The notes under the pieces: model-generated
Seen by the model: the letters and a program-made list of their open reading frames with translations, nothing else
What the model was told of the DNA's origin: nothing
The model's database searches: none
NCBI RefSeq assembly: GCF_026151205.1
Contig: NC_087075.1
Location: 618,501 to 682,500 of the forward strand
Direction of reading: 5' to 3'
Source: Bolinopsis microptera
Taxonomy: Eukaryota > Ctenophora > Tentaculata > Lobata > Bolinopsidae
Length of the DNA stretch: 64,000 nucleotides
Shown here: piece after piece, positions 5,462-62,800 of the stretch
Numbering within the stretch: the first letter of the stretch is position 1
Layout: each line of letters opens with the position of its first letter
Translations under genes and position numbers: made by a program

Positions 5462-5490
5462 AATGTCGGAAGGGTTCATTATCCCCCCGA

Positions 5491-5553
<63 letters not shown>

Positions 5554-9322: not shown

Positions 9323-9365
<43 letters not shown>

Positions 9366-30330: not shown

Positions 30331-31139
30331 CTATGTCCTCTTTTTACCAACTCGAAATGCTGATAAAATAGGAAAGTCTTCCTTTATAGAAACTTATTCG
30401 TCGTGATGTACTCCCCAAAAACTTTGGTGGTCCATTCTGTATGATGGCTTTGATGACTTCCTAGCCAATAAACACTGGATAACCTGTGCCTAACCTGTCC
30501 AGGGAGATTGACAGATAAGGGCCGAACGGATTACCTGCAAAAAATTCAATATGAAGGGAGTGGCCAAACTAGCTACTTTAAACCGTAATACAGTCCTAGT
30601 TAGGATGCAATGGAGGGACGTGATAGGAGGAGAGGGGGAGGAGGGACGGTAAGGTTAGGTTCAACACTTTATGCTCCATGCCGCCGGAGGACACCTCATT
30701 GTTTGAAGGCTAATCAGCCCTCCAACATGAATGTTCTTAAATAAGAGGTCCTGTTGCCCACTGTTTAAAAAGTATTTACTTAGGTCAATCTAATAAATGA
30801 ATGCTACCACTGTACTTGTCCCAGTCACTCTAATTTTATAACACCATGACAAACAAAATAAAAAAGTATGACTGTACAGCAATAAAAATGTATCCACCTA
30901 CAGTAACACCTTTATAACCCATTTAAGCTTCTGAAAGATGACAATGATGACAACACTGATCAGATGCTGTCATACGTAAATCTCTGATGGTACTTGAAAG
31001 CTGTGACTCATTATTCTGTAAAAAGACATAAACCCGCACTTTGCTAACGAATTAACAGTGCAAAACACACTAATATTTTTCACAAACTTGATGGCAACAA
31101 ATCAAACTTTGACTCGCTGGCAAATGGAAATAGCTAAGT

Positions 31140-39718: not shown

Positions 39719-42700
39719 GGAGACACCACCTGTTATATGTCTGGTATTCTGATCTACTTGCCCTCTGGTTGCTGACATCACTTCATCATGGCCCTTTCTC
39801 TTCATCGTTTCCTCTTCTGCTCTTCTCCTCACCGGTAAGCATTATACTATTCAGCACTATACTATTCAGCACTATACTATTCTCATTATACTATTCAGCA
39901 CATACTATTCTCATTATACTATTCAGCACTATACTATTCTCATTATACTAATCAGCACTATACTATTCAGCACTATACTATTCAGCACTATACTATTCAG
40001 CACTATACTATTCTCATTATATATAATATAGATATCATGGGAAACTGCTTATTCACAAACGTTTGTGGAGTAGCAGAAAAGCATTGTATTGTTCAGGTAC
40101 GGGATACTGGTAACTAGAAAGTAAGCATTGTATTGTTCAGGTACGGGATGCTGGTAACTAGAAAGTAAGCTTTGTATTGTTCAGGTACGGGATACTGGTA
40201 ACTAGAAAGTAAGCATTGTATTGTTCAGGTACGGGATACTGGTACTAGAAAGTAAGCATTGTATTGTTCAGGTACGAGATACTGGTAACTAGAAAGTAAG
40301 CATTGTATTGTTCAGGGTACGGGATACTGGTAACTAGAAAGTAAGCATTGTATTGTTCGGGTACGGGATACTGGTAACTAGAAAGTAAGCATTGTATTGT
40401 TCAGGTACGGGATACTGGTAACTAGAAAGTAAGCAGTGTATTGTTCAGGTACGGGATACTGGTAACTAGAAAGTAAGCATTGTATTGTTCAGGTACAGGA
40501 TGCTGGTAACTAGAAAGTAAGCATTGTATTGTTCAGGTACGGGATACTGGTAACTAGAAAGTAAGCATTGTATCGTTCAGGTACGGGATACTGGTAACTA
40601 GAAAGTAAGCATTGTATTGTTCAGGTACAGGATAATGGTAACTAGAAAGTAAGCATTGTATTGTTCAGGTACGGGATACTGGTAACTAGAAAGTAAGCAT
40701 TCTATTGTTCAGGTACCGGATACTGGTAACTAGAAAGTAAGCATTGTATTGTTCAGGTACGGGATACTGGTAACTAGAAAGTAAGCATTGTATTGTTCAG
40801 GTACGGGATACTGGTAACTAGAAAGTAAGCATTGTATTGTTCAGGTACGGGATACTGGTAACTAGAAAGTAAGCATTGTATTGTTCAGGTACGGGATACT
40901 GGTAACTAGAAAGTAAGCATTGTATTGTTCAGGTACGGGATACTGGTAACTAGAAAATAAGCATTGTATTGTTCAGGTACGGGATACTGGTAACTAGAAA
41001 GTAAGCATTGTATTGTTCAGGTACGGGATACTGGTAACTAGAAAGTAAGCATTTTATTGTTCAGGTACGGGATACTGGTAACTAGAAAGTAAGCATTGTA
41101 TCGTTCAGGTACGGGATACTGGTAACTAGAAAGTAATCATTCTATTGTTCAGATACGGGATACTGGTAACTAGAAAGTAAGCATTGCATTGTTCAGGTAC
41201 GGGATACTGGTAACTAGAAAGAGAGCATTCTATTGTTCAGGTACGGGATACTGGTAACTAGAAAGTAAGCATTCTATTGTTCAGATACGGGATACTGGTA
41301 ACTAGAAAGTAAGCATTGTATTGTTCAGGCACGGGATACTGGTAACTAGAAAGTAAGCATTGTATTGTTCAGGTACGGGATACTGGTAACTAGAAAGTAA
41401 GCATTGTATTGTTCAGGTACGGGATACTGGTAACTAGAAAGTAAGCATTGTATTGTTCAGGTACGGGATGCTGGTAACTAGAAAGTAAGCATTGTATTGT
41501 TCAGGTACAGGATAATGGTAACTAGAAAGTAAGCATTGTATTGTTCAGGTACGGGATACTGGTAACTGTAAGCATTGTATTGTTCAGGTACGGGATACTG
41601 GTAACTAGAAAGTAAGCATTGTATTGTTCAGGTACGGGATACTGGTAACTAGAAAGTAAGCATTGTATTGTTTAGGTACGGGATGCTGGTAACTAGAAAG
41701 CAAGCATTGTATTGTTCAGGTACGGGATGCTGGTAACTAGAAAGTAAGCATTGTATTGTTCAGGTACGGGATACTGGTAACTAGAAAGTAAGCATTGTAT
41801 CGTTCAGGTACGGGATACTGGTAACTAGAAAGTAAGCAGTGTATTGTTCAGGTACGGGATGCTGGTAACTAGAAAGTAAGCATTGTATTGTTCAGGTACG
41901 GGATACTGGTAACTAGAAAGTAAGCATTGTATTGTTCAGGTACGGGATACTGGTAACTAGAAAGTAAGCATTGTATCGTTCAGGTACGGGATACTGGTAA
42001 CTAGAAAGTAAGCATTGTATTGTTCAGGTACGGGATACTGGTAACTAGAAAGTAAGCATTGTATTGTTCAGGTACGGGATACTGGTAACTGTAAGCATTG
42101 TATTGCTCAGGTACGGGATACTGGTAACTAGAAAGTAAGCATTGTATTGTTCAGGTACGGGATGCTGGTAACTAGAAAGTAAGCATTGTATTGTTCAGGT
42201 ACGGGATACTGGTAACTGTAAGCATTGTATTGCTCAGGTACGGGATACTGGTAACTAGAAAGTAAGCATTGTATTGTTCAGGTACGGGATACTGGTAACT
42301 AGAAAGTAAGCATTGTATTGTTCAGGTACGGGATACTGGTAACTGTAAGCATTGTATCGTTCAGGTACGGGATACTGGTAACTAGAAAGTAAGCATTGTA
42401 TTGTTCAGGTACGGGATACTGGTAACTAGAAAGTAAGCATTGTATTGTTCAGGTACGGGATACTGGTAACTAGAAAGTAAGCATTGTATTGTTCAGGTAC
42501 GGGATACTGGTAACTAGAAAGTAAGCATTGTATTGTTCAGGTACGAGATACTGGTAACTAGAAAGTAAGAATTGTATTGTTCAGGTACGGGATACTGGTA
42601 ACTAGAAAGTAAGCATTGTATTGTTCAGGTACGGGATACTGGTAACTAGAAAGTAAGCATTGTATTGTTCAGGTACGGGATGCTGGTAACTAGAAGTAAG

Positions 42701-45700
42701 CATTGTATTGTTCAGGTACGGGATACTGGTAACTAGAAAGTAAGCATTGTATTGTTCAGGTACGGGATACTGGTAACTAGAAAGTAAGCATTGTATTGTT
42801 CAGGTACGGGATGCTGGTAACTAGAAAGTAAGCATTGTATTGTTCAGGTACGGGATACTGGTAACTAGAAAGTAAGCATTGTATTGTTCAGGTACGGGAT
42901 ACTGGTAACTAGAAAGTAAGCATTGTATTGTTCAGGTACGGGAAACTGGTAACTAGAAAGTAAGCATTGTATTGTTCAGGTACGGGATACTGGTAACTAG
43001 AAAGTAAGCATTGTGTTGTTCAGGTACGGGATACTGGTAACTAGAAAGTAAGCATCGTATTGTTCAGGTACGGGATACTGGTAACTAGAAAGTAAGCATT
43101 GTATTGTTCAGGTACGGGATACTGGTAACTAGAAAGTAAGCATTGTATTGTTCAGGTACGGGATACTGGTAACTAGAAAGTAAGCATTGTATTGTTCAGG
43201 TACGGGATACTGGTAACTAGAAAGTAAGCATTGTATTGTTCAGGTACGGGATACTGGTAACTAGAAAGTAAGCATCGTATTGTTCAGGTACGGGATACTG
43301 GTAACTAGAAAGTAAGCATTGTATCGTTCAGGTACAGGATACTGGTAACTAGAAAGTAAGCATTGTATTGTTCAGGTACGGGATACTGGTAACTAGAAAG
43401 TAAGCATTGTATTGTTCAGGTACGGGATACTGGTAAACTAGAAAGTAAACATTGTATTGTTCAGGTACGGGATACTGGTAACTAGAAAGAGAGCTCATTT
43501 TACTGTGGCATTTATTTGGGTATATTCCAGCTGCTGTTCCGTCATCACAGCCTTCAGCAAGGGAGAGGTCCACTTCTTTCCGGGTTAGTAGTGTACTGAT
43601 GTAGACAAAACTCTTGATTTAAATCGTTATCCTTATCTCTAGAGTAAGTCATCTCACTATTTCAGATAGTGCTATGTGTAGAGTAAGTCACCTCACTATT
43701 TCAGATAGTGCTATGTGTAGAGTAAGTCACCTCACTATTTCAGATAGTGCTATGTGTAGAGTAAGTCACCTCACTATTTTAGATGGTGCTATGTGTAGAG
43801 TAAGTCACCTCACTATTTCAGATGGTGCTATGTGTAGAGTAAGTCACCTCACTATTTCAGATAGTGCTATGTGTAGAGTAAGTCACCTCACTATTTCAGA
43901 TAGTGCTATGTGTAGAGTAAGTCACCTCACTATTTCAGATAGTGCTATGTGTAGAGTAAGTCACCTCACTATTTCAGATGGTGCTATGTGTAGAGTAAGT
44001 CACCTCACTATTTCAGATGGTGCTATGTGTAGAGTAAGTCACCTCACTATTTCAGATAGTGCTATGTGTAGAGTAAGTCACCTCACTATTTCAGATAGTG
44101 CTATGTGTAGAGTAAGTCACCTCACTATTTCAGATAGTGTTATGTGTAGAGTAAGTCACCTCACTATTTCAGATAGTGCTATGTGTAGAGTAAGTCACCT
44201 CACTATTTCAGATAGTGCTATGTGTAGAGTAAGTCACCTCACTATTTCAGATAGTGCTATGTGTAGAGTAAGTCACCTCACTATTTCAGATGGTGCTATG
44301 TGTAGAGTAAGTCACCTCACTATTTCAGATGGTGCTATGTGTAGAGTAAGTCACCTCACTATTTCAGATAGTGCTATGTGTAGAGTAAGTCACCTCACTA
44401 TTTCAGATAGTGCTATGTGTAGAGTAAGTCACCTCACTATTTCAGATAGTGCTATGTGTAGAGTAAGTCACCTCACTATTTCAGATAGTGCTATGTGTAG
44501 AGTAAGTCACCTCACTATTTCAGATAGTGCTATGTGTAGAGTAAGTCACCTCACTATTTCAGATAGTGCTATGTGTAGAGTAAGTCACCTCACTATTTCA
44601 GATAGTGCTATGTGTAGAGTAAGTCACCTCACTATTTCAGATAGTGCTATGTGTAGAGTAAGTCACCTCACTATTTCAGATAGTGCTATGTGTAGAGTAA
44701 GTCACCTCACTATTTCAGATAGTGCTATGTGTAGAGTAAGTCACCTCACTATTTCAGATAGTGCTATGTGTAGAGTAAGTCACCTCACTATTTCAGATAG
44801 TGCTATGTGTAGAGTAAGTCACCTCACTATTTCAGATAGTGCTATGTGTAGAGTAAGTCACCTCACTATTTCAGATAGTGCTATGTGTAGAGTAAGTCAC
44901 CTCACTATTTCAGATAGTGCTATGTGTAGAGTAAGTCACCTGAACTCACCCTTGAGACGCCTGCTTCTCTCTACCCTTCTAGGTAAACGCTTACTTAAAC
45001 TTCTAAAATCACATTTTTCTAAAATCACGTGACACAAATAAACCAATAAGAACACAGTTTTAACACTACTCGATTTCTAAATTAAGCGCAGTTTTGTCGA
45101 TTTTTAAAGATCCCGTTAACCAAAATGTGTCGAGAGACAAACTATTTAAGATAAATTGATGGTTAAAAAATAAGAAGAGCACCGTAAAATAAACTGCACG
45201 CCGCAGTTTATTCGATATTTTGCAATAATAAATCTTCAAGAAATGAACTCAGAAGCTTATGAGTATTAGTACAGTGAACCCCTCCCTGCTACTGGAGTAG
45301 TATTAGTACCTACACTTTGTGTCATAGTTTTTATTAGAGTGCTAATAATAGCAGGGGTATACGAACCCCTGTACACCCCTGAATAATAGTATCTACTTGA
45401 AATTATCTAGATAAGTAAATAAAGAAATTACGGGTTTTATCTAGATAATCCTATCTAAATATTATCTAGATGCCAACCCTGCTCAAAGTTAAATATATAT
45501 TATATATTATATAAATATAAATATAAATCATTAATTAAAATTTAAAATTTACATTTCGCAGGAGTAGTGCCCTTTGTACTGGTAATCTCTACAAATATCT
45601 GTCTCTGCGTTCTTGCTAGAATAAAAATAATGCAAGAAAACGAGGTTAGTTTCATAATAATATTACTAATAATGATATAAAAATTTCTTTAGTCATATAG

Positions 45701-48700
45701 GTTAATTATAATTTTACTAAGTATCGCACTAAATCGTCTTAAATAAAATCAACCCTTCGAAGTTGGATGATTGAAATCTTCCTTCCATTTTCATGATCAG
45801 TTTACTTTTAATTTTATTGGTGAGTATAGTTTACCGGCTTATGCGATTATTCCATGGTTTACACTACTGTAACCATAATTACATTAGGTAACCATAATTA
45901 CATTAGGTAACCATAGTAACATTATGTAACCATAATTACATTAGGTAACCATAATTACATTAGGTAACCATAGTAACATTAGGTAACCATAATTACATTA
46001 GGTAACCATAGTAACATTAGGTCGTAGTGGCACTTAACAGAAGAATGTCTGAAGGAGTAGCAAAGTGCTCAGTTTCACGCAAACCTCCCAGCACAGCTAT
46101 AAAAGGTAAAAATACAATAAAGCTCTAGACTCTAATGTATAAACTCCAAGCACAGCTATAAAAGGCCGCACATAAGTTCGGCCATATTTTGCGAAAAGTG
46201 CGATCCCAGCTGATTCTGCCTAAAATTGCTTGATATGCAGCTAGTGTGCGGCACTATTAGTGCGGCTAGTGTGCGGCGAATATTTGAGAAATGTGGCAAA
46301 CATGCGGCGAAAAGTTAAACAATACTACATGGGGTTAGTTTAATAATTCTTTCTATAAGAAAAAATGAGTATTGCACGATTTACAAAACAATTTTCTTCT
46401 ACTGATAGTGATAAAGGTAACAACTTAATTCCTAAGTTCTCAATGCATTATGTTACTGGGCCGCGCTCCAGGTAATGCATTATGCAGCCGACATGGTAAT
46501 GAGTTGTATCACCTCGTGACCCCCATTGTCGTTTCACTACGATACATGACAGGGGGAGCCGCGCACTCGTGCGCGGCGGATCATACAACGTATGACAAGT
46601 AATGAGTACCAACTAAGCCCAATTTTTAGCTGTATTTACCCTAATTTGCAACTGAACTCGCTGCAATATTTCTGAACTCCAAACTTTACGATAAATTGTT
46701 GCTTTTTATACCTGAAATTATAAAAAATTGTACGGGAAGTTCCAAATAATTGTGCGAAAAAGTGCGGAATATAGTTAAACGAACTCGTCGCATGTTGCCT
46801 CTGTAAGAATACAGTAAAGCAAAGGCGGCTCGTGAGACCTGGCTGGCGGTTTACTTGGGTGTCTGGTCGACGGAATGATAAATTACTGATTACACGCGCG
46901 GCAAACCTGACACCTTATGTTACACGGCACACGCCCATATTTTTTGACAAATTACACGCATGTCGCAGCAAACTTAAAACGGAATCGGAAGAAATGTCGA
47001 TACAACCAAAGAACTCGTACTGTAGTACAAAACGATCGACACGTGCAGTGTGAGCGTGAGACCTGAGACGCGCAGGCCATAGTTTTAAAATTAACTATCA
47101 AGGTCATGGGGGGTGATTCGGAATCAGCGTCCAAAAATACACCGATTCAGATCAATTTCATACCCAAAGGGCCTTTTCACAAGAATTTTCTTAAAATTTG
47201 AGCGAGCGATTTAGTAGGAGCGGTGTCCTAAACCCTAAAAACCATTTAATTAACGATGTCAATTCTTCGCAGCTCGGAGAGGCCCAGTTAAGTAGCGCAT
47301 TTTGCTGATCTAACGAAGCGAGAAGCATAATTGAGTGCGCGGCGCGGCCTAGTATGCAGTAACACATCCCGCTACAATATAAAAACCATCAATTTATACA
47401 GCAATACGAGCGCTGATATGCTTTGTACTTGTAGTGTTTTCAATTAACTATGTGTTAAATTTCGATCTGCAAGTTATCCAAATATGAAATAAGTTTTGGA
47501 CACCTTGAAATTGAAATTCGTTAGGAGCAGACTGCTGACTGCTCTTAAAGAATTTCGACTGAGTCACGTGCGCGTGAACTCGAACGTGAACTCGAACGTT
47601 TGCGCAGTAAAATTGCAGATTTAAAAAAATAAAATATAATTGATAATTGCGCGGCTTATTGGTAAAATGAAAAAAAATAATATTTGCGCGCGCAAATAAT
47701 TAAGAAATAAATTAATAAGTAATTTAATAAATAAATAAGTCACTATCTTTACAGGTATCCTTACAGTTGTAGGGCTATGCTCGGTTGCTATAGTAACGTG
47801 GACACCCAGTATTGCTACTCACTTGTTTACTTACATCAACAAAGTTGATCGTGGCCCGGTCTGGCTGGAACGAGTTAGAATCTGTGCTTACTTTCTCGGA
47901 TCATTTGGTAATTTATAAAGGAGCAGCTGAGTGTAGTTTGGTAATTTACTAAAGTAGCAGAGTGTAGTTTGGTAATTTACTAAAGTAGCAGAGTGTAGTT
48001 TGGTTATTTACTAAAGTAGCAGAGTGTAGTTTGGTAATTTACTAAAGTAGCAGAGTGTAGTTTGGCCTTGGTAATTTACTAAAATAGCAGAGTGTAGTTT
48101 GGTAATTTACTAAAGTAGCAGAGTGTAGTTTGATGATTTACTAAAGTAGCAGAGTGTAGTTTGGTAATTTACTAAAGTAGCAGAGTGTAGTTTGGTAATT
48201 TACTAAAGTAGCAGAGTGTAGTTTGGTAATTTACTAGAGTAGCAGAGTGTAGTTTGGTAATTTACTAGAGCAGCAGAGTGTAGTTTAGTAATTTACTAGA
48301 GTAGCAGAGTGTAGTTTGGTAATTTACTAGAGTAGCAGAGTGTAGTTTGGTAATTTACTAAAGTAGCAGAGTGTAGTTTGGTAATTTACTAGAGCAGCAG
48401 AGTGTAGTTTGGTAATTTACTAGAGTAGCAGAGTGTAGTTTGGTAACTTACTAAAGTAGCAGAGTGTAGTTTGGTAATTTACTAAAGTAGCAGAGTGTAG
48501 TTTAGTAACTATTATTAATTAATTTCTCAGATTATTAATTCCCGAACAAGCGATGTTTTATAACGTGACTATAAATTTCAGCTAACCCAGTGCTGTACAT
48601 GGTGGTTAATAGAGATTTCGTGGCATATCTCCGGATACTAGCAGCACGACGGAGGTGCAAGGACTCCCTCCCTCCGCCCAGACACAACACAGCTCACGTT

Positions 48701-48868
48701 GCAGTAGTGAGAACCTTTAGGAAGTGTAAAATGGAACGCCTTCGGAGAATCAAGGAAAACACTCATGGTTGTCATGGTAGTAGCCTGGCAATGAAGACTC
48801 CGTCTGTTATGTTCGAAGAAATGCGGTCACACGAAAATATTATCAGAGTAGTAGATACTGCTTTATAG
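39719..48868 (+). CDS. Class A (rhodopsin-like) GPCR, TM3 to C-terminus, left arm
   Basis: Exons: 39,719-39,834 (TM3, noisy here), 43,486-43,583 (TM4), 45,562-45,644 (TM5), 46,021-46,105 (ICL3), 47,755-47,907 (TM6, ECL3, start of TM7), 48,582-48,868 (NPVLY, helix 8, tail, TAG). All introns have GT/AG ends. Junction phases agree, except that one exon is probably missing between TM4 and TM5. Features: TM3 Cys 25 residues before the Arg of an HRF triplet replacing DRY; TM4 AFIWVYSS; TM5 GVVPFVLVIS; TM6 VTWTP; TM7 FANPVLY (NPxxY). The TM7 position of the opsin retinal lysine is Phe, so not an opsin. The tail is basic and ends DTAL, a class I PDZ ligand. TM1-TM2 are absent. Ligand unknown. Introns are mostly minisatellite. 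It converges with the FYY-IPNS gene. Confidence 0.85.
39835..40020. repeat. 15-bp minisatellite at the donor end of the TM3-TM4 intron (left arm)
   Basis: Begins at the TM3 donor (CCG|GTAAGCATTATACTATTC). Units alternate CACTATACTATTCAG with a TCATTATACTATTC variant. Each CAG-ending unit looks like a short acceptor. Confidence 0.85.
40076..43485. repeat. 44-bp minisatellite, ~77 copies, filling the TM3-TM4 intron (left arm)
   Basis: The unit runs GTAAGCATTGTATTGTTCAG, then GTACGGGATACTGGTAACTA, then GAAA. It begins with the same GTAAGCATT as the intron's true donor. The last unit's GGTAACTAG|AAAG is the true acceptor of the TM4 exon at 43,486. A few units lack CTAGAAAG-type bases and are ~37 bp. 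Scattered single-base variants make units distinguishable. Confidence 0.95.
43641..44942. repeat. 39-bp minisatellite, ~33 copies, in the TM4-TM5 intron (left arm)
   Basis: The unit is GTAAGTCACCTCACTATT-TCAG followed by ATAGTGCTATGTGTAGA: a consensus donor and a consensus acceptor 22 nt apart plus a 17-nt block. Variants differ mainly at ATAG/ATGG. Because 39 is a multiple of three, one frame stays open for 452 codons; I regard that as a repeat by-product, not a protein. Confidence 0.93.
44943..45561. other. Rest of the TM4-TM5 intron with a TIR-like fragment
   Basis: No supported exon. From 45,352 to 45,481 an AT-rich segment starts CAGGGGTATACGAACCCCTG and ends CCAACCCTG, with three internal TATCTAGATA palindromes. 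CAGGG/CCCTG ends recall hAT-type termini, but I see no matching 8-bp target duplication. Right-arm mirror: 57,132-57,750 (TIR-like part 57,212-57,341). An ECL2 exon is expected somewhere in this intron but was not found. Confidence 0.45.
45869..46020. repeat. 19-bp minisatellite, ~8 copies, ending at the ICL3 acceptor (left arm)
   Basis: Unit GTAACCATAATTACATTAG with a GTAACCATAGTAACATTAG variant. The last unit's CATTAG is the acceptor used for the ICL3 exon at 46,021. Each unit starts GT and ends AG. Confidence 0.9.
46106..47754. other. ICL3-TM6 intron with transposon-like debris
   Basis: Contains a partial copy of the preceding exon end at 46,149-46,165 (AGCACAGCTATAAAAGG), a GC-rich block with repeated GTGCGGC at 46,160-46,320, and a perfect 9-bp-stem hairpin at 46,558-46,577. 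Near 47,543-47,630 a short open frame encodes RARELERELERLRSKIADL, a leucine-zipper-like tail. CG-rich islands in AT-rich DNA suggest old mobile elements, but no transposase was recognised. Right-arm mirror 54,940-56,587. Confidence 0.4.
47904..48510. repeat. 31-bp minisatellite, ~18 copies, starting at the TM6-7 exon donor (left arm)
   Basis: Unit TTTGGTAATTTACTAAAGTA plus GCAGAGTGTAG. The first unit is the exon end itself (TTTG|GTAATTTA), so each copy repeats the donor. A TACTAAA branch-point-like motif and a GCAG follow inside the unit. Confidence 0.93.
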
Positions 48869-49610
48869 GAGGCAATAAAAGGTAGACTGTAGTGTTGTTA
48901 CACTACAGTATACTAATGCTATTAGTTTTAATTAGTATAATTAGTATTTTAGTCTGAATTGAGTGTTTTAAACTAATTACAACACTACAAATCTATTACA
49001 TTTATTGAGCTATTTAAGAATTTATTTTGACATTTCGTCCCTGATAAAGGCGTGTAGCCGAAACGTCGACATTATTTTGTTTATTACACTGAGTGGAGAC
49101 TCTCACTTCGTCCCAACAATCAAATATGATCAAGTATCAACCCACTCACAAGAACGAAAAATATACATGTTTTCAGAATCCCCTGTAAAAGGAACCTTTT
49201 TCATATTTCTACATTTTCGTAGATTCAGCAAATGCAATAAAACAAACATATTAGCGTTTTTTAATGCAGGTTACATTTTTAATAATATAAAAATAAAATA
49301 TAGAATTGCACATCAGTGGAAGGTTACAGTGATTTTTAGGATCGTAAAAATATATTTTCAAACATCGTAATTAAAATTACAAGAACAGTCAGTTTTTCAT
49401 GCCGTATTAATATCTTTTTTGTTTGTTCCACAGTCCCAATGTTAGTGTTACTGTGGCAACCGCTCCGATTTTACCATTTCAAGACTTCAAACTGAGAAAT
49501 TAAGTTTTATTTAGCTGACAATACATGGTAACATTTAACATTTTGTAAGATCTACAATATAAACGGTTTCGTTTTAAACTCTAAAATCATATCAACATCA
49601 TCTTGTCATA
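48869..49610. other. GPCR-FYY convergent intergenic region with hammerhead-like motif (left arm)
   Basis: AT-rich. At 49,041-49,066 it carries CTGATAAAGGCGTGTAGCCG followed by AAACGTC: a CUGAUA(A) core, a GGC/GCC stem with a 5-nt loop, then GAAAC. This resembles the hammerhead motif that recurs in Penelope-like retroelements. No reverse transcriptase is seen, so at most a terminal fragment. An open frame of 121 codons (49,005-49,370) overlaps it but is shortened in the mirror by a one-base difference, so I do not call it a gene. Right-arm mirror 53,083-53,825. Confidence 0.45.
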
Positions 49611-49913
49611 ACCAAGTCACTCTTACCACAGTTTAGTAGTAGAAGAGCTCAATAGCACCAAGTCACTCTTACCACAGTTTAGTAGTAGAAGAGCTCAATA
49701 GCAGTCTTACCACAGTTTAGTAGTAGAAGAGCTCAATAGCACCAAGTCACTCTTACCACAGTTTAGTAGTAGAAGAGCTCAATAGCACCAAGTCACTCTT
49801 ACCACAGTTTAGTAGTAGAAGAGCTCAATAGCACTCTTACCACAGTTTAGTAGTAGAAGAGCTCAATAGCACTCTTACCACAGTTTAGTAGTAGAAGAGC
49901 TCAATAGCACCAA
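49611..49913. repeat. 38/46-bp minisatellite of the FYY-IPNS 3' end (left arm)
   Basis: Mirror of 52,780-53,082. Seven copies of TTAGTAGTAGAAGAGCTCAA plus flank, i.e. the reverse complement of the last codons and stop of the FYY gene. Confidence 0.93.
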
Positions 49914-51059
49914 GGTAGTCCTTGATCCATTCTCCGAAAACTTTGTATTTGAGTCCGGCTTGGGTGATAGCTCCACTCATACTACGGCTGATATCGGCAT
50001 CAAATCTGAAGATTTATTTACGAAATAGCGGCTAGTTGAACATTCAGTAGATTACAGGTAAGCAGTATATAACAGTTAATTGGCTGTTTAAAGTTACTTT
50101 TTAAATTTAATTTCTTACTTCTTCAATACAAAAACTCAATACACAAACTCACTGGGGTCCCAGGAAGTAGGTGATAGAGTATCTATCAAAGTCAACTTCA
50201 GCAACTCTGTGTCTGACTGAGGGCACCTTGTTGTCGATGAGGTCATCTACCAGTTTACCGATGTTGACGAGGAAAGCATTGTCTCCTGTCACGGGGGCGG
50301 GTCTGTACTGGTTCTTGTGTAGGATCTGACAATGATTTGAAACTTTTATCAAATAATACAGATTTATACAGCAATAAACGTATATAAAAACAATGGCGAT
50401 AAAGAATGTTTTACGATTTACTTAATCGTAAAATTTTAATATTCTGAGAATAATGAGAAATATTGAGATTGTTTATTTTGATCAGTAGAGGTTTATTTTA
50501 CCTCAAGACCACCGTTGTTGAAGGTGGAGAGGACGGTGACGGTAGAGTCAAATGTGTTCTAGCTCTCTCAGGAGAGTTCCGTCAAAGTCAGAGTACATGT
50601 TGCTGTTGATCCTGGAAGAATTTATTATTTATAATCATAGGGACTGCCAAACACAAGGATTTTTTAAAGGAATATCAAGTACCCATCATATATAGCTGAG
50701 GTGGAATGTAACTCACTGTCTTCGGATGGGGTATTTTCTGAGTCCCATAGCAGAGAACTCGTCCTCAGAAAAGAGAGCGGGCAGGTTAGGGTACTCCATA
50801 GATCGAGCAATGCTCCTGATGAAGGCTCGTCCAATGTTCCTTCTGATTTCAAATCCAGTCTGGAAGGTCTCCTTGAATCCTTTGTCGAAGGTGCAGTTTC
50901 CAGTCTCGGGCCACACGTTGGGTTCCTGGCAGTCGTATCTGAGTTTCTCGAGGATGTCGTCACTCTCGAAGCTTGCAGCTCGGGTCTCGTGGGGTCCAAT
51001 GTTGTAGAGGTTCTTGTATTGAAGGGTGTTCTCAACATCGTCAAGTCCGGGGCAGTATC
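49885..51059 (-). CDS. FYY-type IPNS-like oxygenase, left arm copy, truncated and frameshifted
   Basis: Mirror of the right-arm gene. Exons in transcript order are 50,717-51,059, 50,502-50,611, 50,153-50,325 and 49,885-50,005. An extra A/T near 50,556 changes the HID iron-ligand codons into H-I-stop, so this copy would end in exon 2. The same exon is intact in the right arm, and the change is in a short homopolymer, so a consensus error is likely. The 5' exons are missing because the palindrome centre lies just upstream. The C-terminus again ends FYY before TAA. Confidence 0.85.
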
Positions 51060-51634
51060 CTGGATATTAGTAATTTTAGATCATTTTAATCATATGAGCT
51101 GCGTCTTACTAGGGGGTAAGTTCTACAAATGGATAGATAATTAGTTGCCACTATCAATTAATTAAGATAATTAGTTGCCAAAGGGCACCACTCACCTCAA
51201 TGAAAAGAGCAAGGAAGTATAAAACAATAATTCCCCTGGAAGACTAAAGTAAGTTATTTATCTTTAGATGATACAATTAAGATACAACCATTTGTCGGAA
51301 TTAGACAGTAAAAAAAAAAATAAACAATAACAATAAAAATAATCTCTAGTATAGCAAATAATTTTTATTGATTATGTTTTTATTTACTGACTAATTCGCA
51401 CATGTTTTATCTCATTGTAATCCATCTAAAGTTAAATAACCTTACTTTAGTCTTCCAGGGGAATTATTGTTTTATACTTCCTTGCTCTTTTCATTGAGGT
51501 GAGTGGTGCCCTTTGGCAACTAATTATCTTAATTAATTGATAGTGGCAACTAATTATCTATCCATTTGTAGAACTTACCCCCTAGTAAGACGCAGCTCAT
51601 ATGATTAAAATGATCTAAAATTACTAATATCCAG
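51060..51634. other. Centre of the inverted repeat
   Basis: Holds the turn-around point near 51,347. Out to about 51,245 and 51,450 the arms match almost perfectly. Between these points similarity falls to a patchy but still symmetrical match (ATAAT, TTTATTG and TACTG blocks in mirrored order). No loop of unique sequence separates the arms. No exon in phase with the FYY gene was found. Confidence 0.85.
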
Positions 51635-52808
51635 GATACTGCCCCGGACTTGACGATGTTGAGAACACCCTTCAATACAAGAACCTCTACAACATTGGAC
51701 CCCACGAGACCCGAGCTGCAAGCTTCGAGAGTGACGACATCCTCGAGAAACTCAGATACGACTGCCAGGAACCCAACGTGTGGCCCGAGACTGGAAACTG
51801 CACCTTCGACAAAGGATTCAAGGAGACCTTCCAGACTGGATTTGAAATCAGAAGGAACATTGGACGAGCCTTCATCAGGAGCATTGCTCGATCTATGGAG
51901 TACCCTAACCTGCCCGCTCTCTTTTCTGAGGACGAGTTCTCTGCTATGGGACTCAGAAAATACCCCATCCGAAGACAGTGAGTTACATTCCACCTCAGCT
52001 ATATATGATGGGTACTTGATATTCCTTTAAAAAATCCTTGTGTTTGGCAGTCCCTATGATTATAAATAATAAATTCTTCCAGGATCAACAGCAACATGTA
52101 CTCTGACTTTGACGGAACTCTCCTGAGAGAGCTAGAACACATTGACTCTACCGTCACCGTCCTCTCCACCTTCAACAACGGTGGTCTTGAGGTAAAATAA
52201 ACCTCTACTGATCAAAATAAACAATCTCAATATTTCTCATTATTCTCAGAATATTAAAATTTTACGATTAAGTAAATCGTAAAACATTCTTTATCGCCAT
52301 TGTTTTTATATACGTTTATTGCTGTATAAATCTGTATTATTTGATAAAAGTTTCAAATCATTGTCAGATCCTACACAAGAACCAGTACAGACCCGCCCCC
52401 GTGACAGGAGACAATGCTTTCCTCGTCAACATCGGTAAACTGGTAGATGACCTCATCGACAACAAGGTGCCCTCAGTCAGACACAGAGTTGCTGAAGTTG
52501 ACTTTGATAGATACTCTATCACCTACTTCCTGGGACCCCAGTGAGTTTGTGTATTGAGTTTTTGTATTGAAGAAGTAAGAAATTAAATTTAAAAAGTAAC
52601 TTTAAACAGCCAATTAACTGTTATATACTGCTTACCTGTAATCTACTGAATGTTCAACTAGCCGCTATTTCGTAAATAAATCTTCAGATTTGATGCCGAT
52701 ATCAGCCGTAGTATGAGTGGAGCTATCACCCAAGCCGGACTCAAATACAAAGTTTTCGGAGAATGGATCAAGGACTACCTTGGTGCTATTGAGCTCTTCT
52801 ACTACTAA
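51635..52808 (+). CDS. FYY-type isopenicillin-N-synthase-like non-heme iron oxygenase, 5'-truncated
   Basis: Exons 51,635-51,977, 52,083-52,191, 52,368-52,540 and 52,688-52,808. Introns of 105, 176 and 147 bp are GT/AG, and joins keep frame. About 248 residues are visible; the family is ~330, so ~80 N-terminal residues are missing. The double-stranded beta-helix core is recognisable: iron ligands His and Asp at 52,138-52,146 (HIDSTVTVL, the HxD motif), GGLEIL, then AFLVNIGKLV, third ligand His at 52,482 (VRHRV), and the RxS substrate-anchoring motif at 52,509 (FDRYSITYF). The C-terminus is GAIELFYY then TAA. IPNS homologues with terminal FYY occur in luminous ctenophores and were proposed to supply or act on the Phe-Tyr-Tyr backbone of coelenterazine (Francis et al. 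2015). That role is a hypothesis, not shown by sequence. The 5' end abuts the palindrome centre. Confidence 0.92.
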
Positions 52809-53082
52809 ACTGTGGTAAGACTGCTATTGAGCTCTTCTACTACTAAACTGTGGTAAGACTGCTATTGAGCTCTTCTACTACTAAACTGTGGTAAGAGTGA
52901 CTTGGTGCTATTGAGCTCTTCTACTACTAAACTGTGGTAAGAGTGACTTGGTGCTATTGAGCTCTTCTACTACTAAACTGTGGTAAGACTGCTATTGAGC
53001 TCTTCTACTACTAAACTGTGGTAAGAGTGACTTGGTGCTATTGAGCTCTTCTACTACTAAACTGTGGTAAGAGTGACTTGGT
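52780..53082. repeat. 38/46-bp minisatellite repeating the FYY-stop codons (right arm)
   Basis: Seven units, the first being the real CDS end. Each contains GAGCTCTTCTACTACTAA (E-L-F-Y-Y-stop) followed by ACTGTGGTAAGA. Long units add GTGACTTGGTG, an echo of the coding GACTACCTTGGTG. The remaining six copies lie after the stop, in the presumed 3'UTR. Confidence 0.95.
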
Positions 53083-53825
53083 TATGACAAGATGATGTTG
53101 ATATGATTTTAGAGTTTAAAACGAAACCGTTTATATTGTAGATCTTACAAAATGTTAAATGTTACCATTTATTGTCAGCTAAATAAAACTTAATTTCTCA
53201 GTTTGAAGTCTTGAAATGGTAAAATCGGAGCGGTTGCCACAGTAACACTAACATTGGGACTGTGGAACAAACAAAAAAGATATTAATACGGCATGAAAAA
53301 CTGACTGTTCTTGTAATTTTAATTACGATGTTTGAAAATATATTTTTACGATCCTAAAAATCACTGTAACCTTCCACTGATGTGCAATTCTATATTTTAT
53401 TTTTATATTATTAAAAATGTAACCTGCATTAAAAAACGCTAATATGTTTGTTTTATTGCATTTGCTGAATCTACGAAAATGTAGAAATATGAAAAAGGTT
53501 CCTTTTACAGGGGATTCTGAAAACATGTATATTTTTCGTTCTTGTGAGTGGGTTGATACTTGATCATATTTGATTGTTGGGGACGAAGTGAGAGTCTCCA
53601 CTCAGTGTAATAAACAAAATAATGTCGACGTTTCGGCTACACGCCTTTATCAGGGACGAAATGTCAAAATAAATTCTTAAATAGCTCAATAAATGTAATA
53701 GATTTGTAGTGTTGTAATTAGTTTAAAACACTCAATTCAGACTAAAATACTAATTATACTAATTAAAACTAATAGCATTAGTATACTGTAGTGTAACAAC
53801 ACTACAGTCTACCTTTTATTGCCTC
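53083..53825. other. Convergent intergenic region, right arm mirror
   Basis: Mirror of 48,869-49,610. The hammerhead-like motif is at 53,628-53,653 on the minus strand. It has one extra G near 53,581-53,584 relative to the left arm. No gene supported. Confidence 0.45.
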
Positions 53826-56800
53826 CTATAAAGCAGTATCTACTACTCTGATAATATTTTCGTGTGACCGCATTTCTTCGAACATAACAGACGGAGTCTT
53901 CATTGCCAGGCTACTACCATGACAACCATGAGTGTTTTCCTTGATTCTCCGAAGGCGTTCCATTTTACACTTCCTAAAGGTTCTCACTACTGCAACGTGA
54001 GCTGTGTTGTGTCTGGGCGGAGGGAGGGAGTCCTTGCACCTCCGTCGTGCTGCTAGTATCCGGAGATATGCCACGAAATCTCTATTAACCACCATGTACA
54101 GCACTGGGTTAGCTGAAATTTATAGTCACGTTATAAAACATCGCTTGTTCGGGAATTAATAATCTGAGAAATTAATTAATAATAGTTACTAAACTACACT
54201 CTGCTACTTTAGTAAATTACCAAACTACACTCTGCTACTTTAGTAAGTTACCAAACTACACTCTGCTACTCTAGTAAATTACCAAACTACACTCTGCTGC
54301 TCTAGTAAATTACCAAACTACACTCTGCTACTTTAGTAAATTACCAAACTACACTCTGCTACTCTAGTAAATTACCAAACTACACTCTGCTACTCTAGTA
54401 AATTACTAAACTACACTCTGCTGCTCTAGTAAATTACCAAACTACACTCTGCTACTCTAGTAAATTACCAAACTACACTCTGCTACTTTAGTAAATTACC
54501 AAACTACACTCTGCTACTTTAGTAAATTACCAAACTACACTCTGCTACTTTAGTAAATCATCAAACTACACTCTGCTACTTTAGTAAATTACCAAACTAC
54601 ACTCTGCTATTTTAGTAAATTACCAAGGCCAAACTACACTCTGCTACTTTAGTAAATTACCAAACTACACTCTGCTACTTTAGTAAATAACCAAACTACA
54701 CTCTGCTACTTTAGTAAATTACCAAACTACACTCTGCTACTTTAGTAAATTACCAAACTACACTCAGCTGCTCCTTTATAAATTACCAAATGATCCGAGA
54801 AAGTAAGCACAGATTCTAACTCGTTCCAGCCAGACCGGGCCACGATCAACTTTGTTGATGTAAGTAAACAAGTGAGTAGCAATACTGGGTGTCCACGTTA
54901 CTATAGCAACCGAGCATAGCCCTACAACTGTAAGGATACCTGTAAAGATAGTGACTTATTTATTTATTAAATTACTTATTAATTTATTTCTTAATTATTT
55001 GCGCGCGCAAATATTATTTTTTTTCATTTTACCAATAAGCCGCGCAATTATCAATTATATTTTATTTTTTAAATCTGCAATTTTACTGCGCAAACGTTCG
55101 AGTTCACGTTCGAGTTCACGCGCACGTGACTCAGTCGAAATTCTTTAAGAGCAGTCAGCAGTCTGCTCCTAACGAATTTCAATTTCAAGGTGTCCAAAAC
55201 TTATTTCATATTTGGATAACTTGCAGATCGAAATTTAACACATAGTTAATTGAAAACACTACAAGTACAAAGCATATCAGCGCTCGTATTGCTGTATAAA
55301 TTGATGGTTTTTATATTGTAGCGGGATGTGTTACTGCATACTAGGCCGCGCCGCGCACTCAATTATGCTTCTCGCTTCGTTAGATCAGCAAAATGCGCTA
55401 CTTAACTGGGCCTCTCCGAGCTGCGAAGAATTGACATCGTTAATTAAATGGTTTTTAGGGTTTAGGACACCGCTCCTACTAAATCGCTCGCTCAAATTTT
55501 AAGAAAATTCTTGTGAAAAGGCCCTTTGGGTATGAAATTGATCTGAATCGGTGTATTTTTGGACGCTGATTCCGAATCACCCCCCATGACCTTGATAGTT
55601 AATTTTAAAACTATGGCCTGCGCGTCTCAGGTCTCACGCTCACACTGCACGTGTCGATCGTTTTGTACTACAGTACGAGTTCTTTGGTTGTATCGACATT
55701 TCTTCCGATTCCGTTTTAAGTTTGCTGCGACATGCGTGTAATTTGTCAAAAAATATGGGCGTGTGCCGTGTAACATAAGGTGTCAGGTTTGCCGCGCGTG
55801 TAATCAGTAATTTATCATTCCGTCGACCAGACACCCAAGTAAACCGCCAGCCAGGTCTCACGAGCCGCCTTTGCTTTACTGTATTCTTACAGAGGCAACA
55901 TGCGACGAGTTCGTTTAACTATATTCCGCACTTTTTCGCACAATTATTTGGAACTTCCCGTACAATTTTTTATAATTTCAGGTATAAAAAGCAACAATTT
56001 ATCGTAAAGTTTGGAGTTCAGAAATATTGCAGCGAGTTCAGTTGCAAATTAGGGTAAATACAGCTAAAAATTGGGCTTAGTTGGTACTCATTACTTGTCA
56101 TACGTTGTATGATCCGCCGCGCACGAGTGCGCGGCTCCCCCTGTCATGTATCGTAGTGAAACGACAATGGGGGTCACGAGGTGATACAACTCATTACCAT
56201 GTCGGCTGCATAATGCATTACCTGGAGCGCGGCCCAGTAACATAATGCATTGAGAACTTAGGAATTAAGTTGTTACCTTTATCACTATCAGTAGAAGAAA
56301 ATTGTTTTGTAAATCGTGCAATACTCATTTTTTCTTATAGAAAGAATTATTAAACTAACCCCATGTAGTATTGTTTAACTTTTCGCCGCATGTTTGCCAC
56401 ATTTCTCAAATATTCGCCGCACACTAGCCGCACTAATAGTGCCGCACACTAGCTGCATATCAAGCAATTTTAGGCAGAATCAGCTGGGATCGCACTTTTC
56501 GCAAAATATGGCCGAACTTATGTGCGGCCTTTTATAGCTGTGCTTGGAGTTTATACATTAGAGTCTAGAGCTTTATTGTATTTTTACCTTTTATAGCTGT
56601 GCTGGGAGGTTTGCGTGAAACTGAGCACTTTGCTACTCCTTCAGACATTCTTCTGTTAAGTGCCACTACGACCTAATGTTACTATGGTTACCTAATGTAA
56701 TTATGGTTACCTAATGTTACTATGGTTACCTAATGTAATTATGGTTACCTAATGTAATTATGGTTACATAATGTTACTATGGTTACCTAATGTAATTATG

Positions 56801-59800
56801 GTTACCTAATGTAATTATGGTTACAGTAGTGTAAACCATGGAATAATCGCATAAGCCGGTAAACTATACTCACCAATAAAATTAAAAGTAAACTGATCAT
56901 GAAAATGGAAGGAAGATTTCAATCATCCAACTTCGAAGGGTTGATTTTATTTAAGACGATTTAGTGCGATACTTAGTAAAATTATAATTAACCTATATGA
57001 CTAAAGAAATTTTTATATCATTATTAGTAATATTATTATGAAACTAACCTCGTTTTCTTGCATTATTTTTATTCTAGCAAGAACGCAGAGACAGATATTT
57101 GTAGAGATTACCAGTACAAAGGGCACTACTCCTGCGAAATGTAAATTTTAAATTTTAATTAATGATTTATATTTATATTTATATAATATATAATATATAT
57201 TTAACTTTGAGCAGGGTTGGCATCTAGATAATATTTAGATAGGATTATCTAGATAAAACCCGTAATTTCTTTATTTACTTATCTAGATAATTTCAAGTAG
57301 ATACTATTATTCAGGGGTGTACAGGGGTTCGTATACCCCTGCTATTATTAGCACTCTAATAAAAACTATGACACAAAGTGTAGGTACTAATACTACTCCA
57401 GTAGCAGGGAGGGGTTCACTGTACTAATACTCATAAGCTTCTGAGTTCATTTCTTGAAGATTTATTATTGCAAAATATCGAATAAACTGCGGCGTGCAGT
57501 TTATTTTACGGTGCTCTTCTTATTTTTTAACCATCAATTTATCTTAAATAGTTTGTCTCTCGACACATTTTGGTTAACGGGATCTTTAAAAATCGACAAA
57601 ACTGCGCTTAATTTAGAAATCGAGTAGTGTTAAAACTGTGTTCTTATTGGTTTATTTGTGTCACGTGATTTTAGAAAAATGTGATTTTAGAAGTTTAAGT
57701 AAGCGTTTACCTAGAAGGGTAGAGAGAAGCAGGCGTCTCAAGGGTGAGTTCAGGTGACTTACTCTACACATAGCACTATCTGAAATAGTGAGGTGACTTA
57801 CTCTACACATAGCACTATCTGAAATAGTGAGGTGACTTACTCTACACATAGCACTATCTGAAATAGTGAGGTGACTTACTCTACACATAGCACTATCTGA
57901 AATAGTGAGGTGACTTACTCTACACATAGCACTATCTGAAATAGTGAGGTGACTTACTCTACACATAGCACTATCTGAAATAGTGAGGTGACTTACTCTA
58001 CACATAGCACTATCTGAAATAGTGAGGTGACTTACTCTACACATAGCACTATCTGAAATAGTGAGGTGACTTACTCTACACATAGCACTATCTGAAATAG
58101 TGAGGTGACTTACTCTACACATAGCACTATCTGAAATAGTGAGGTGACTTACTCTACACATAGCACTATCTGAAATAGTGAGGTGACTTACTCTACACAT
58201 AGCACTATCTGAAATAGTGAGGTGACTTACTCTACACATAGCACTATCTGAAATAGTGAGGTGACTTACTCTACACATAGCACTATCTGAAATAGTGAGG
58301 TGACTTACTCTACACATAGCACTATCTGAAATAGTGAGGTGACTTACTCTACACATAGCACCATCTGAAATAGTGAGGTGACTTACTCTACACATAGCAC
58401 CATCTGAAATAGTGAGGTGACTTACTCTACACATAGCACTATCTGAAATAGTGAGGTGACTTACTCTACACATAGCACTATCTGAAATAGTGAGGTGACT
58501 TACTCTACACATAGCACTATCTGAAATAGTGAGGTGACTTACTCTACACATAACACTATCTGAAATAGTGAGGTGACTTACTCTACACATAGCACTATCT
58601 GAAATAGTGAGGTGACTTACTCTACACATAGCACTATCTGAAATAGTGAGGTGACTTACTCTACACATAGCACCATCTGAAATAGTGAGGTGACTTACTC
58701 TACACATAGCACCATCTGAAATAGTGAGGTGACTTACTCTACACATAGCACTATCTGAAATAGTGAGGTGACTTACTCTACACATAGCACTATCTGAAAT
58801 AGTGAGGTGACTTACTCTACACATAGCACTATCTGAAATAGTGAGGTGACTTACTCTACACATAGCACCATCTGAAATAGTGAGGTGACTTACTCTACAC
58901 ATAGCACCATCTAAAATAGTGAGGTGACTTACTCTACACATAGCACTATCTGAAATAGTGAGGTGACTTACTCTACACATAGCACTATCTGAAATAGTGA
59001 GGTGACTTACTCTACACATAGCACTATCTGAAATAGTGAGATGACTTACTCTAGAGATAAGGATAACGATTTAAATCAAGAGTTTTGTCTACATCAGTAC
59101 ACTACTAACCCGGAAAGAAGTGGACCTCTCCCTTGCTGAAGGCTGTGATGACGGAACAGCAGCTGGAATATACCCAAATAAATGCCACAGTAAAATGAGC
59201 TCTCTTTCTAGTTACCAGTATCCCGTACCTGAACAATACAATGTTTACTTTCTAGTTTACCAGTATCCCGTACCTGAACAATACAATGCTTACTTTCTAG
59301 TTACCAGTATCCCGTACCTGAACAATACAATGCTTACTTTCTAGTTACCAGTATCCTGTACCTGAACGATACAATGCTTACTTTCTAGTTACCAGTATCC
59401 CGTACCTGAACAATACGATGCTTACTTTCTAGTTACCAGTATCCCGTACCTGAACAATACAATGCTTACTTTCTAGTTACCAGTATCCCGTACCTGAACA
59501 ATACAATGCTTACTTTCTAGTTACCAGTATCCCGTACCTGAACAATACAATGCTTACTTTCTAGTTACCAGTATCCCGTACCTGAACAATACAATGCTTA
59601 CTTTCTAGTTACCAGTATCCCGTACCTGAACAATACGATGCTTACTTTCTAGTTACCAGTATCCCGTACCTGAACAACACAATGCTTACTTTCTAGTTAC
59701 CAGTATCCCGTACCTGAACAATACAATGCTTACTTTCTAGTTACCAGTTTCCCGTACCTGAACAATACAATGCTTACTTTCTAGTTACCAGTATCCCGTA

Positions 59801-62800
59801 CCTGAACAATACAATGCTTACTTTCTAGTTACCAGTATCCCGTACCTGAACAATACAATGCTTACTTTCTAGTTACCAGCATCCCGTACCTGAACAATAC
59901 AATGCTTACTTTCTAGTTACCAGTATCCCGTACCTGAACAATACAATGCTTACTTTCTAGTTACCAGTATCCCGTACCTGAACAATACAATGCTTACTTT
60001 CTAGTTACCAGCATCCCGTACCTGAACAATACAATGCTTACTTTCTAGTTACCAGTATCCCGTACCTGAACAATACAATGCTTACTTTCTAGTTACCAGT
60101 ATCCCGTACCTGAACAATACAATTCTTACTTTCTAGTTACCAGTATCTCGTACCTGAACAATACAATGCTTACTTTCTAGTTACCAGTATCCCGTACCTG
60201 AACAATACAATGCTTACTTTCTAGTTACCAGTATCCCGTACCTGAACAATACAATGCTTACTTTCTAGTTACCAGTATCCCGTACCTGAACAATACAATG
60301 CTTACTTTCTAGTTACCAGTATCCCGTACCTGAACGATACAATGCTTACAGTTACCAGTATCCCGTACCTGAACAATACAATGCTTACTTTCTAGTTACC
60401 AGTATCCCGTACCTGAACAATACAATGCTTACTTTCTAGTTACCAGTATCCCGTACCTGAGCAATACAATGCTTACAGTTACCAGTATCCCGTACCTGAA
60501 CAATACAATGCTTACTTTCTAGTTACCAGCATCCCGTACCTGAACAATACAATGCTTACTTTCTAGTTACCAGTATCCCGTACCTGAGCAATACAATGCT
60601 TACAGTTACCAGTATCCCGTACCTGAACAATACAATGCTTACTTTCTAGTTACCAGTATCCCGTACCTGAACAATACAATGCTTACTTTCTAGTTACCAG
60701 TATCCCGTACCTGAACGATACAATGCTTACTTTCTAGTTACCAGTATCCCGTACCTGAACAATACAATGCTTACTTTCTAGTTACCAGTATCCCGTACCT
60801 GAACAATACAATGCTTACTTTCTAGTTACCAGCATCCCGTACCTGAACAATACACTGCTTACTTTCTAGTTACCAGTATCCCGTACCTGAACGATACAAT
60901 GCTTACTTTCTAGTTACCAGTATCCCGTACCTGAACAATACAATGCTTACTTTCTAGTTACCAGCATCCCGTACCTGAACAATACAATGCTTGCTTTCTA
61001 GTTACCAGCATCCCGTACCTAAACAATACAATGCTTACTTTCTAGTTACCAGTATCCCGTACCTGAACAATACAATGCTTACTTTCTAGTTACCAGTATC
61101 CCGTACCTGAACAATACAATGCTTACAGTTACCAGTATCCCGTACCTGAACAATACAATGCTTACTTTCTAGTTACCATTATCCTGTACCTGAACAATAC
61201 AATGCTTACTTTCTAGTTACCAGCATCCCGTACCTGAACAATACAATGCTTACTTTCTAGTTACCAGTATCCCGTACCTGAACAATACAATGCTTACTTT
61301 CTAGTTACCAGTATCCCGTACCTGAACAATACAATGCTTACTTTCTAGTTACCAGTATCCCGTGCCTGAACAATACAATGCTTACTTTCTAGTTACCAGT
61401 ATCCCGTATCTGAACAATAGAATGCTTACTTTCTAGTTACCAGTATCCCGTACCTGAACAATAGAATGCTCTCTTTCTAGTTACCAGTATCCCGTACCTG
61501 AACAATGCAATGCTTACTTTCTAGTTACCAGTATCCCGTATCTGAACAATAGAATGATTACTTTCTAGTTACCAGTATCCCGTACCTGAACGATACAATG
61601 CTTACTTTCTAGTTACCAGTATCCCGTACCTGAACAATAAAATGCTTACTTTCTAGTTACCAGTATCCCGTACCTGAACAATACAATGCTTACTTTCTAG
61701 TTACCAGTATCCCGTACCTGAACAATACAATGCTTATTTTCTAGTTACCAGTATCCCGTACCTGAACAATACAATGCTTACTTTCTAGTTACCAGTATCC
61801 CGTACCTGAACAATACAATGCTTACTTTCTAGTTACCAGTATCCCGTACCTGAACAATACAATGCTTACTTTCTAGTTACCAGTATCCCGTACCTGAACA
61901 ATACAATGCTTACTTTCTAGTTACCAGTATCCCGTACCTGAACAATACAATGCTTACTTTCTAGTTACCAGTATCCGGTACCTGAACAATAGAATGCTTA
62001 CTTTCTAGTTACCAGTATCCCGTACCTGAACAATACAATGCTTACTTTCTAGTTACCATTATCCTGTACCTGAACAATACAATGCTTACTTTCTAGTTAC
62101 CAGTATCCCGTACCTGAACGATACAATGCTTACTTTCTAGTTACCAGTATCCCGTACCTGAACAATACAATGCTTACTTTCTAGTTACCAGCATCCTGTA
62201 CCTGAACAATACAATGCTTACTTTCTAGTTACCAGTATCCCGTACCTGAACAATACACTGCTTACTTTCTAGTTACCAGTATCCCGTACCTGAACAATAC
62301 AATGCTTACTTTCTAGTTACCAGTATCCCGTACCCGAACAATACAATGCTTACTTTCTAGTTACCAGTATCCCGTACCTGAACAATACAATGCTTACTTT
62401 CTAGTTACCAGTATCTCGTACCTGAACAATACAATGCTTACTTTCTAGTTACCAGTATCCCGTACCTGAACAATACAATGCTTACTTTCTAGTTACCAGT
62501 ATCCCGTACCTGAACAATACAATGCTTACTTTCTAGTTACCAGCATCCCGTACCTGAACAATACAATGCTTACTTTCTAGTTACCAGTATCCCGTACCTG
62601 AACAATACAATGCTTTCTGCTACTCCACAAACGTTTGTGATAAGCAGTTTCCCATGATATCTATATTATATATAATGAGAATAGTATAGTGCTGAATAGT
62701 ATAGTGCTGAATAGTATAGTGCTGAATAGTATAGTGCTGAATAGTATAATGAGAATAGTATAGTGCTGAATAGTATAATGAGAATAGTATAGTGCTGAAT

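Follow-up and report, generated by a model that had tools for sequence, protein, structure and literature searches.

The stretch of DNA analysed here (the window, 64000 bp; C4:618501–682500 of the Bolinopsis microptera genome) includes a gene for a predicted non-haem-iron oxygenase with the C-terminal residues FYY, and the question raised is whether this locus is a working member of the family that has been proposed to take part in making coelenterazine. A preliminary description prepared from the sequence had named it as a candidate for the coelenterazine pathway and had placed the DNA in the ctenophores, and the phylum was right. It had also stated that FYY-ending homologues of isopenicillin N synthase (IPNS) are reported in luminous and not in non-luminous ctenophores. 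This has been in print since 2015: the accessible part of Francis et al. (PMC4488382) describes such homologues in luminous ctenophores and none in Hormiphora or Pleurobrachia, and sets out the coelenterazine hypothesis together with the RELEHxD and GAIELFYY motifs and the residues of the iron site. As family, motifs and hypothesis were all published at that time, the coelenterazine idea is not new. The family is thus a published candidate, but the copy in the window lacks exons 1 and 2 and, as assembled, is a truncated copy and not a working gene.

It is very likely that the window contains exons 3–6 of an FYY-type non-haem-iron oxygenase gene that had a recent ancestor in common with an intact gene at C4:134 kb, that the copy breaks off at the donor of intron 2, where a palindrome has its centre, leaving two 5'-truncated copies that face apart, and that intact relatives do the work.

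Exons and motifs of the window gene

When the window sequence was spliced, the four exons described previously were found to have AG/GT borders and to join in one frame, giving a protein of 247 aa that ends in GAIELFYY-stop and includes HxD, a third His and RxS (Table 1). The protein matched the Pfam family PF03171 (2OG-FeII_Oxy) with E 4.8e-10 and a score of 40.1 bits, the cut-off being 23, and DIOX_N was absent up to E 1. The best of 22 PDB matches was thymine dioxygenase (E 2.8e-5), with IPNS (1bk0) at E 4.3e-5. The earlier IPNS-like call therefore had the family right, in that the motifs, iron-site residues and RxS match the FYY proteins, but the IPNS label is loose because the top PDB match is thymine dioxygenase; by sequence the protein is of the IPNS/2OG class and not specifically an IPNS.

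RELEHxD, GAIELFYY and the C-terminal FYY are common to the window protein and the FYY homologues of luminous ctenophores (e.g. Mnemiopsis ML199826a and Bolinopsis infundibulum Binf_FYY1). The spacing of the iron triad and RxS (H-x-D, 56 residues to the third His and 9 more to R) is also the same in the homologues given in the accessible part of PMC4488382 and in the window and intact genes. There, the iron-site residues of ML199826a are H245, D247, H301, RxS at 310–312 and Y221; their counterparts in the intact C4:134 kb gene are H249, D251, H305, R314, S316 and Y225, a constant offset of 4.

The window has 14 FYY-stop 12-mers, every one of which lies in the FYY gene, its mirror copy or their 3' minisatellites, thus the FYY-stop signal is more than chance. 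The minisatellite unit repeats the last codons, AIELFYY-stop, making seven FYY-stop sites per arm of the palindrome including the exon end (52797–53060; mirror 49633–49896). The minisatellite at C4:134 kb has 27 such sites, and the loci on C6 and at C4:15.87 Mb have no extra copies. A multi-FYY precursor was considered and rejected, as the units are 38 or 46 bp long, each has a stop and the array has no ATG; the loci without extra copies also disfavour it.

A hydrophobic stretch at 51451–51540 (IIVLYFLALFIEVSGA) was examined as a possible signal-peptide exon and was also rejected, since intron 2 of the intact gene has this sequence too, and the frame of the stretch runs into a stop ahead of exon 3.

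Table 1. Positions of features in the window (window coordinates) and of related loci elsewhere in the genome (contig coordinates)
Feature	Position	Strand	Details
Exon 3 of FYY gene, first exon present in window	51635–51977	+	340 of 343 nt identical to intact C4:134 kb gene
Exon 4 of FYY gene	52083–52191	+	RELEHID; HxD: His 52138–52140, Asp 52144–52146
Exon 5 of FYY gene	52368–52540	+	third His 52482–52484; RYS (RxS) 52509–52517
Exon 6 of FYY gene	52688–52808	+	GAIELFYY-stop; FYY codons 52797–52805, stop 52806–52808
Remainder of intron 2	51437–51634	+	homology to intact gene starts at exon-2 donor (gtaacc)
3' minisatellite, taken as non-coding	52809–53082	+	six more AIELFYY-stop copies, 38/46 bp units, no ATG
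Mirror copy, exon 3	50717–51059	-
Mirror copy, exon 4	50502–50611	-	one-base length difference at 50550; frame broken after RELEHI
Mirror copy, exon 5	50153–50325	-
Mirror copy, exon 6	49885–50005	-	FYY-stop
Palindrome, left arm (inverted copy)	39452–51250	.	from window self-alignment and comparison with C4:134 kb region
Palindrome, right arm	51441–63238	.	collinear with C4:~134.9 kb down to ~122.4 kb; homology runs past 64000
Palindrome, centre (~190 bp)	51251–51440	.	two inverted pieces of a dispersed repeat, indel-rich
39 bp satellite	43623–45029; mirror 57752–59053		469 aa open frame of a 13-residue repeat
Tandem duplication, ~18 kb	2100–20836 and 20038–38637		roughly 82% identical
ORF with NPVLYMVVNRDF	48575–48865	+
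ORF with NPVLYMVVNRDF, mirror	53826–54119	-
Complete FYY locus (C4:134 kb)	C4:133653–135661		six exons
Complete FYY locus (C4:15.87 Mb)	C4:15867417–15868978		six exons
Six complete FYY loci in tandem	C6:20510085–20523721		spacing ~2.3–2.7 kb
Photoprotein-like loci	C5:17.0127–17.0264 Mb; C13:11.082–11.094 Mb; C1:21.999–22.007 Mb; C2; C3

Truncation of the window copy and the palindrome

The exons in the window correspond to exons 3–6 of a six-exon gene, and an intact gene of this type lies 535 kb away at C4:134 kb. Exons 1 and 2 (116 residues) were not found in the window, thus the four exons of the preliminary description are real but do not make a complete gene. The 116 residues lost, of 363, comprise the signal-peptide-like start and most of DIOX_N, which Pfam identified at residues 51–167 of the intact protein (E 1.6e-7). 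The match to the C4:134 kb gene begins at the start of intron 2 (gtaaccttactttag), with none before it. At thresholds of E 1e-20 and 150 bp, 51514–68797 in window numbering was collinear with C4:134.9–117.6 kb, mostly at 90–98%, and no piece of C4:135.2–147.8 kb, where exon 2, exon 1 and the sequence beyond them lie, was among the matches listed for the 84 kb compared.

Over exons 3–6 the window and C4:134 kb proteins are identical, and the codon changes are 7 synonymous and 0 non-synonymous in 247 (dS 0.045). The lack of any protein change indicates that selection lasted until very recently, or that the exons are still part of an intact gene hidden by the assembly. Differences that are all synonymous would be odd in a copy long dead; they fit a truncation of very recent date, or an artefact behind which an intact gene is hidden.

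The preliminary description had dealt with the plus-strand exons and had left out a second FYY copy, on the minus strand at 51059–49885, and the palindrome in which both lie. The sequence from 39452 to 63238 was found to be its own reverse complement at 99.4–99.5%, with arms of 11.8 kb. The mirror copy is frameshifted, its frame being broken by a single one-base length difference between the arms. Both copies, as assembled, are missing the start codon and the signal-peptide-like start along with the bulk of the N-terminal domain, so that neither could make the enzyme, and the enzyme work would be done by intact relatives elsewhere in the genome. That the truncated plus-strand copy is nonetheless expressed and useful, e.g. 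from a promoter in the palindrome centre or by trans-splicing onto exon 3, is highly improbable, for although its frame is open, its splice sites are kept and no amino acid differs from the intact gene, the first in-frame Met is residue 87, neither the signal-peptide-like start nor the larger part of DIOX_N is left, and the sequence upstream is the antisense of the mirror copy.

The truncation at intron 2 coincides with the palindrome centre, where ~26 unpaired bases lie between inverted AT-rich repeat pieces. The two centre halves were scored against a 99-base core of this repeat; one had 5 mismatches and the other 3, and indel events came to 6 in either half, with 11 of the 12 indels one base long. 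Against the same core, which was taken from genomic copies and so favours them somewhat, 19 sampled genomic copies had 0–2 mismatches, and indel events numbered 0 in 16 of them, 1 in two and 4 in one. That the halves are old, diverged transposon ends was judged less probable, as their combined 8 mismatches and 12 indel events relative to the core set them apart from the 19 genomic copies. The centre indels instead look like uncorrected long-read errors. According to the part of PMC10232365 that covers it, the B. microptera assembly was built from PacBio reads with wtdbg, its gaps were closed by TGS-Gapcloser, and pilon was then used with Illumina reads for polishing; section 12 names both CLR and HiFi PacBio libraries, without assigning one to B. 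microptera.

As the centre indels resemble such errors and the assembly is a long-read, gap-closed and pilon-polished one, we lean towards the palindrome being an assembly or library fold-back artefact, in preference to a real recent inversion. A real palindrome, which is distinctly possible though given less than even weight, would have arisen from a recent double-strand break in intron 2 followed by fold-back at a short inverted repeat, an event by which exons 1 and 2 would have been lost and an 11.8 kb inverted copy of exons 3–6 and the downstream DNA made. Fold-back inversions have a short loop between the inverted pieces, and the ~26 nt at the centre could be such a loop. From ~43.8 kb inwards, the arms have only 6 differences over ~7.4 kb (three one-base length differences and three substitutions), which also favours a real inversion, as does the right arm running on into sequence paralogous to C4:117.6–122 kb while the left arm ends in satellite. 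However, the centre is as indel-rich as unpolished sequence, long reads and gap closing went into the assembly, and the left satellite border is poorer than the right one, identity to the C4 counterpart being 65–75% in most alignment rows left of the palindrome and mostly 84–91% on the right. The indel-rich centre is not decisive, because the centres of real palindromes can also resist short-read polishing. When the arm differences were compared with the C4:134 kb locus, the right arm fitted better at the three length differences and the left arm at the three substitutions, and because of this agreement at the substitution sites the left arm is not simply a worse copy.

The repeat at the centre was also found elsewhere (e.g. 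C6:8792900–8797000) as inverted pairs whose members lie 3.8 to 8.6 kb from each other; one pair has ~711 bp inverted repeats at 97.6%, and the repeat probably represents the ends of a DNA transposon. Further features of the window are a ~18 kb tandem duplication, a 39 bp satellite and an ORF that includes NPVLYMVVNRDF; the satellite and the ORF each recur in mirror position (Table 1). Pfam was run on 10 of the 103 listed ORFs, and only the satellite ORF gave matches, which were taken as repeat noise. The NPVLYMVVNRDF segment is one that we take to resemble the seventh helix of rhodopsin-like receptors, and its ORF had no Pfam match up to E 0.01.

The FYY family in the B. microptera genome

The genome (264,652,675 bases in 232 contigs) was searched for further members of the family. 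Mnemiopsis was rejected as its source, since the Mnemiopsis exon-2 primer fits at 5 places, always with 3 mismatches, and no site for the 3' primer was found when up to 3 mismatches were allowed. FYY-type exon 3 was found at 10 loci and FYY-type exon 2 at at least eight, and the only loci without exon 2 were the two in the window; the exon-2 search gave 11 matches (eight FYY-type, two non-FYY paralogues and one exon-1 match), and the counts are lower bounds. At least eight loci are complete, with six exons encoding 359 or 363 aa, and seven of the eight are open throughout, the exception being a C6 copy with TGA at codon 26. GT/AG borders held around all exons at all 10 loci. The eight complete loci encode hydrophobic N-terminal starts, e.g. 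MKLFALVLLLVAPATA-LL, that are signal-peptide-like by sequence, and ATA-LL is also a site named in the accessible part of PMC4488382. For the C6 type, DIOX_N fell just below the Pfam cut-off (27.1 against 27.3 bits).

Set beside the published FYY family, this genome carries at least eight complete loci, six of them in tandem. The published set also has incomplete, near-identical extra copies (ML35201a and MLRB263549; PMC4488382, in the part available). The copies in the window differ from the published FYY proteins in being without exons 1 and 2, including the signal-peptide start, and in being arranged as a palindrome.

Comparison of the C4:134 kb gene with the C6 type, using one copy of each and split points in exons 2 and 6 that were chosen after viewing the sequences, showed that fourfold sites differ at 15 of 20 positions from exon 1 to the middle of exon 2, whereas between that point and the end of exon 5 the count is 9 of 84 (Fisher p 2.6e-8). 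In exon 6 the counts are 5 of 6 for its first half and 1 of 5 for its end. Introns 3–5 of the two types are only 64–74% identical at aligned bases. This pattern looks like repeated gene conversion confined to the exons, though codon selection could contribute to the low divergence of the exons.

Non-FYY relatives were found at C12:9.885–9.891 Mb and C6:13.906 Mb. From their identities to the FYY protein they were taken as members of groups 1 and 2 of the ctenophore non-FYY 2OG-Fe proteins (ML026010a and MLRB505111 types), which belong to the same family as the FYY proteins. The C12 relative has no FYY at its readable end, where the tail runs 23 residues past FGEWMRDYL to an in-frame stop (a further intron is possible), and the tail of the C6:13.906 Mb relative was followed to a point short of its end. 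As FGEWMRDYL is followed by different residues in the C12 relative, what is special is the FYY end.

The FYY tail and coelenterazine

The intact protein resembles IPNS of Aspergillus nidulans (1bk0) in fold family, an NVWP stretch, the HxD...H...RxS arrangement, the RYP tyrosine and a similar tail length; the two are 25% identical, with the iron ligands, RxS and the RYP tyrosine in invariant columns. It would be a secretory-pathway Fe(II)/O2 oxidase in which His249, Asp251 and His305 hold the iron and Tyr225, Arg314 and Ser316 hold the substrate carboxylate, and its C-terminal tail would end at the position of the IPNS tail. The KNGQT tail of IPNS aligns with ELFYY, placing Gln330-Thr331 opposite Tyr-Tyr in a register that is approximate, with a 2-residue gap nearby. 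IPNS proper closes a tripeptide into a ring without using 2-oxoglutarate. Gln330 is an iron ligand in resting IPNS, and the aligned column of the intact FYY protein, in the same approximate register, has a Tyr. As ELFYY aligns with the IPNS tail that bears Gln330, the C-terminus could sit near the iron and serve there as a lid or else as a substrate in cis.

Involvement of the FYY family in making coelenterazine is considered likelier than any other single role, with confidence slightly below even. It is plausible, and what it draws on is a correlation: the family is present in luminous ctenophores and missing from two non-luminous ones, and signs of strong purifying selection on it are reported (both from the accessible part of PMC4488382). 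These two observations are the ones that tell against the alternative, tenable but somewhat less than probable, that the FYY proteins are unrelated to coelenterazine, with the conserved tail forming a structural lid, as it does in IPNS, and coincidental gene loss explaining why Pleurobrachiidae have none. In its favour, not only FYY but the entire last 17 residues (FGEWIKDYLGAIELFYY) are the same in the C4:134 kb and C6 gene types, and the C12 group-1 gene passes from FGEWMRDYL into an unrelated tail. Metridia lucens, a copepod that makes coelenterazine, has three FYY-ending transcripts, none of which matches the ctenophore family, and no functional test of the family had been made by 2018, according to the part of PMC6140675 available. 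No functional test of the family in coelenterazine making was found in the portions of the literature searched, and in the available portion of PMC6278862 the FYY paper is present only in the reference list.

A role of the FYY tail itself as coelenterazine precursor is judged unlikely. More doubtful still is a form in which the tail reaches the iron site at the place of IPNS Gln330 and there undergoes oxidation or cyclisation in cis, the enzyme carrying its own luciferin precursor. If this were true, a tandem-amplified family with homogenised exons would supply the precursor in bulk, alongside amplified photoprotein genes.

An aequorin query gave 55 photoprotein-like matches, which may include other EF-hand proteins, and 54 of these have no inner stop. 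Many are in tandem arrays with a spacing of ~0.94–1.0 kb (Table 1). Their number is as expected for a luminous ctenophore.

The portions of the literature consulted establish no enzyme for the biosynthesis of coelenterazine, and the FYY family is a published candidate. Anyone planning knockouts or in situ work needs to know which copies are complete. As the window locus is truncated and may be mis-assembled, it would be a misleading target. The family and the coelenterazine idea were already published, whereas the incomplete state of this copy is new. The result is a correction and an inventory for a known family in a published genome, not the discovery of a pathway, and the inventory for this luminous ctenophore lineage stands at at least eight complete FYY loci, seven of them open.
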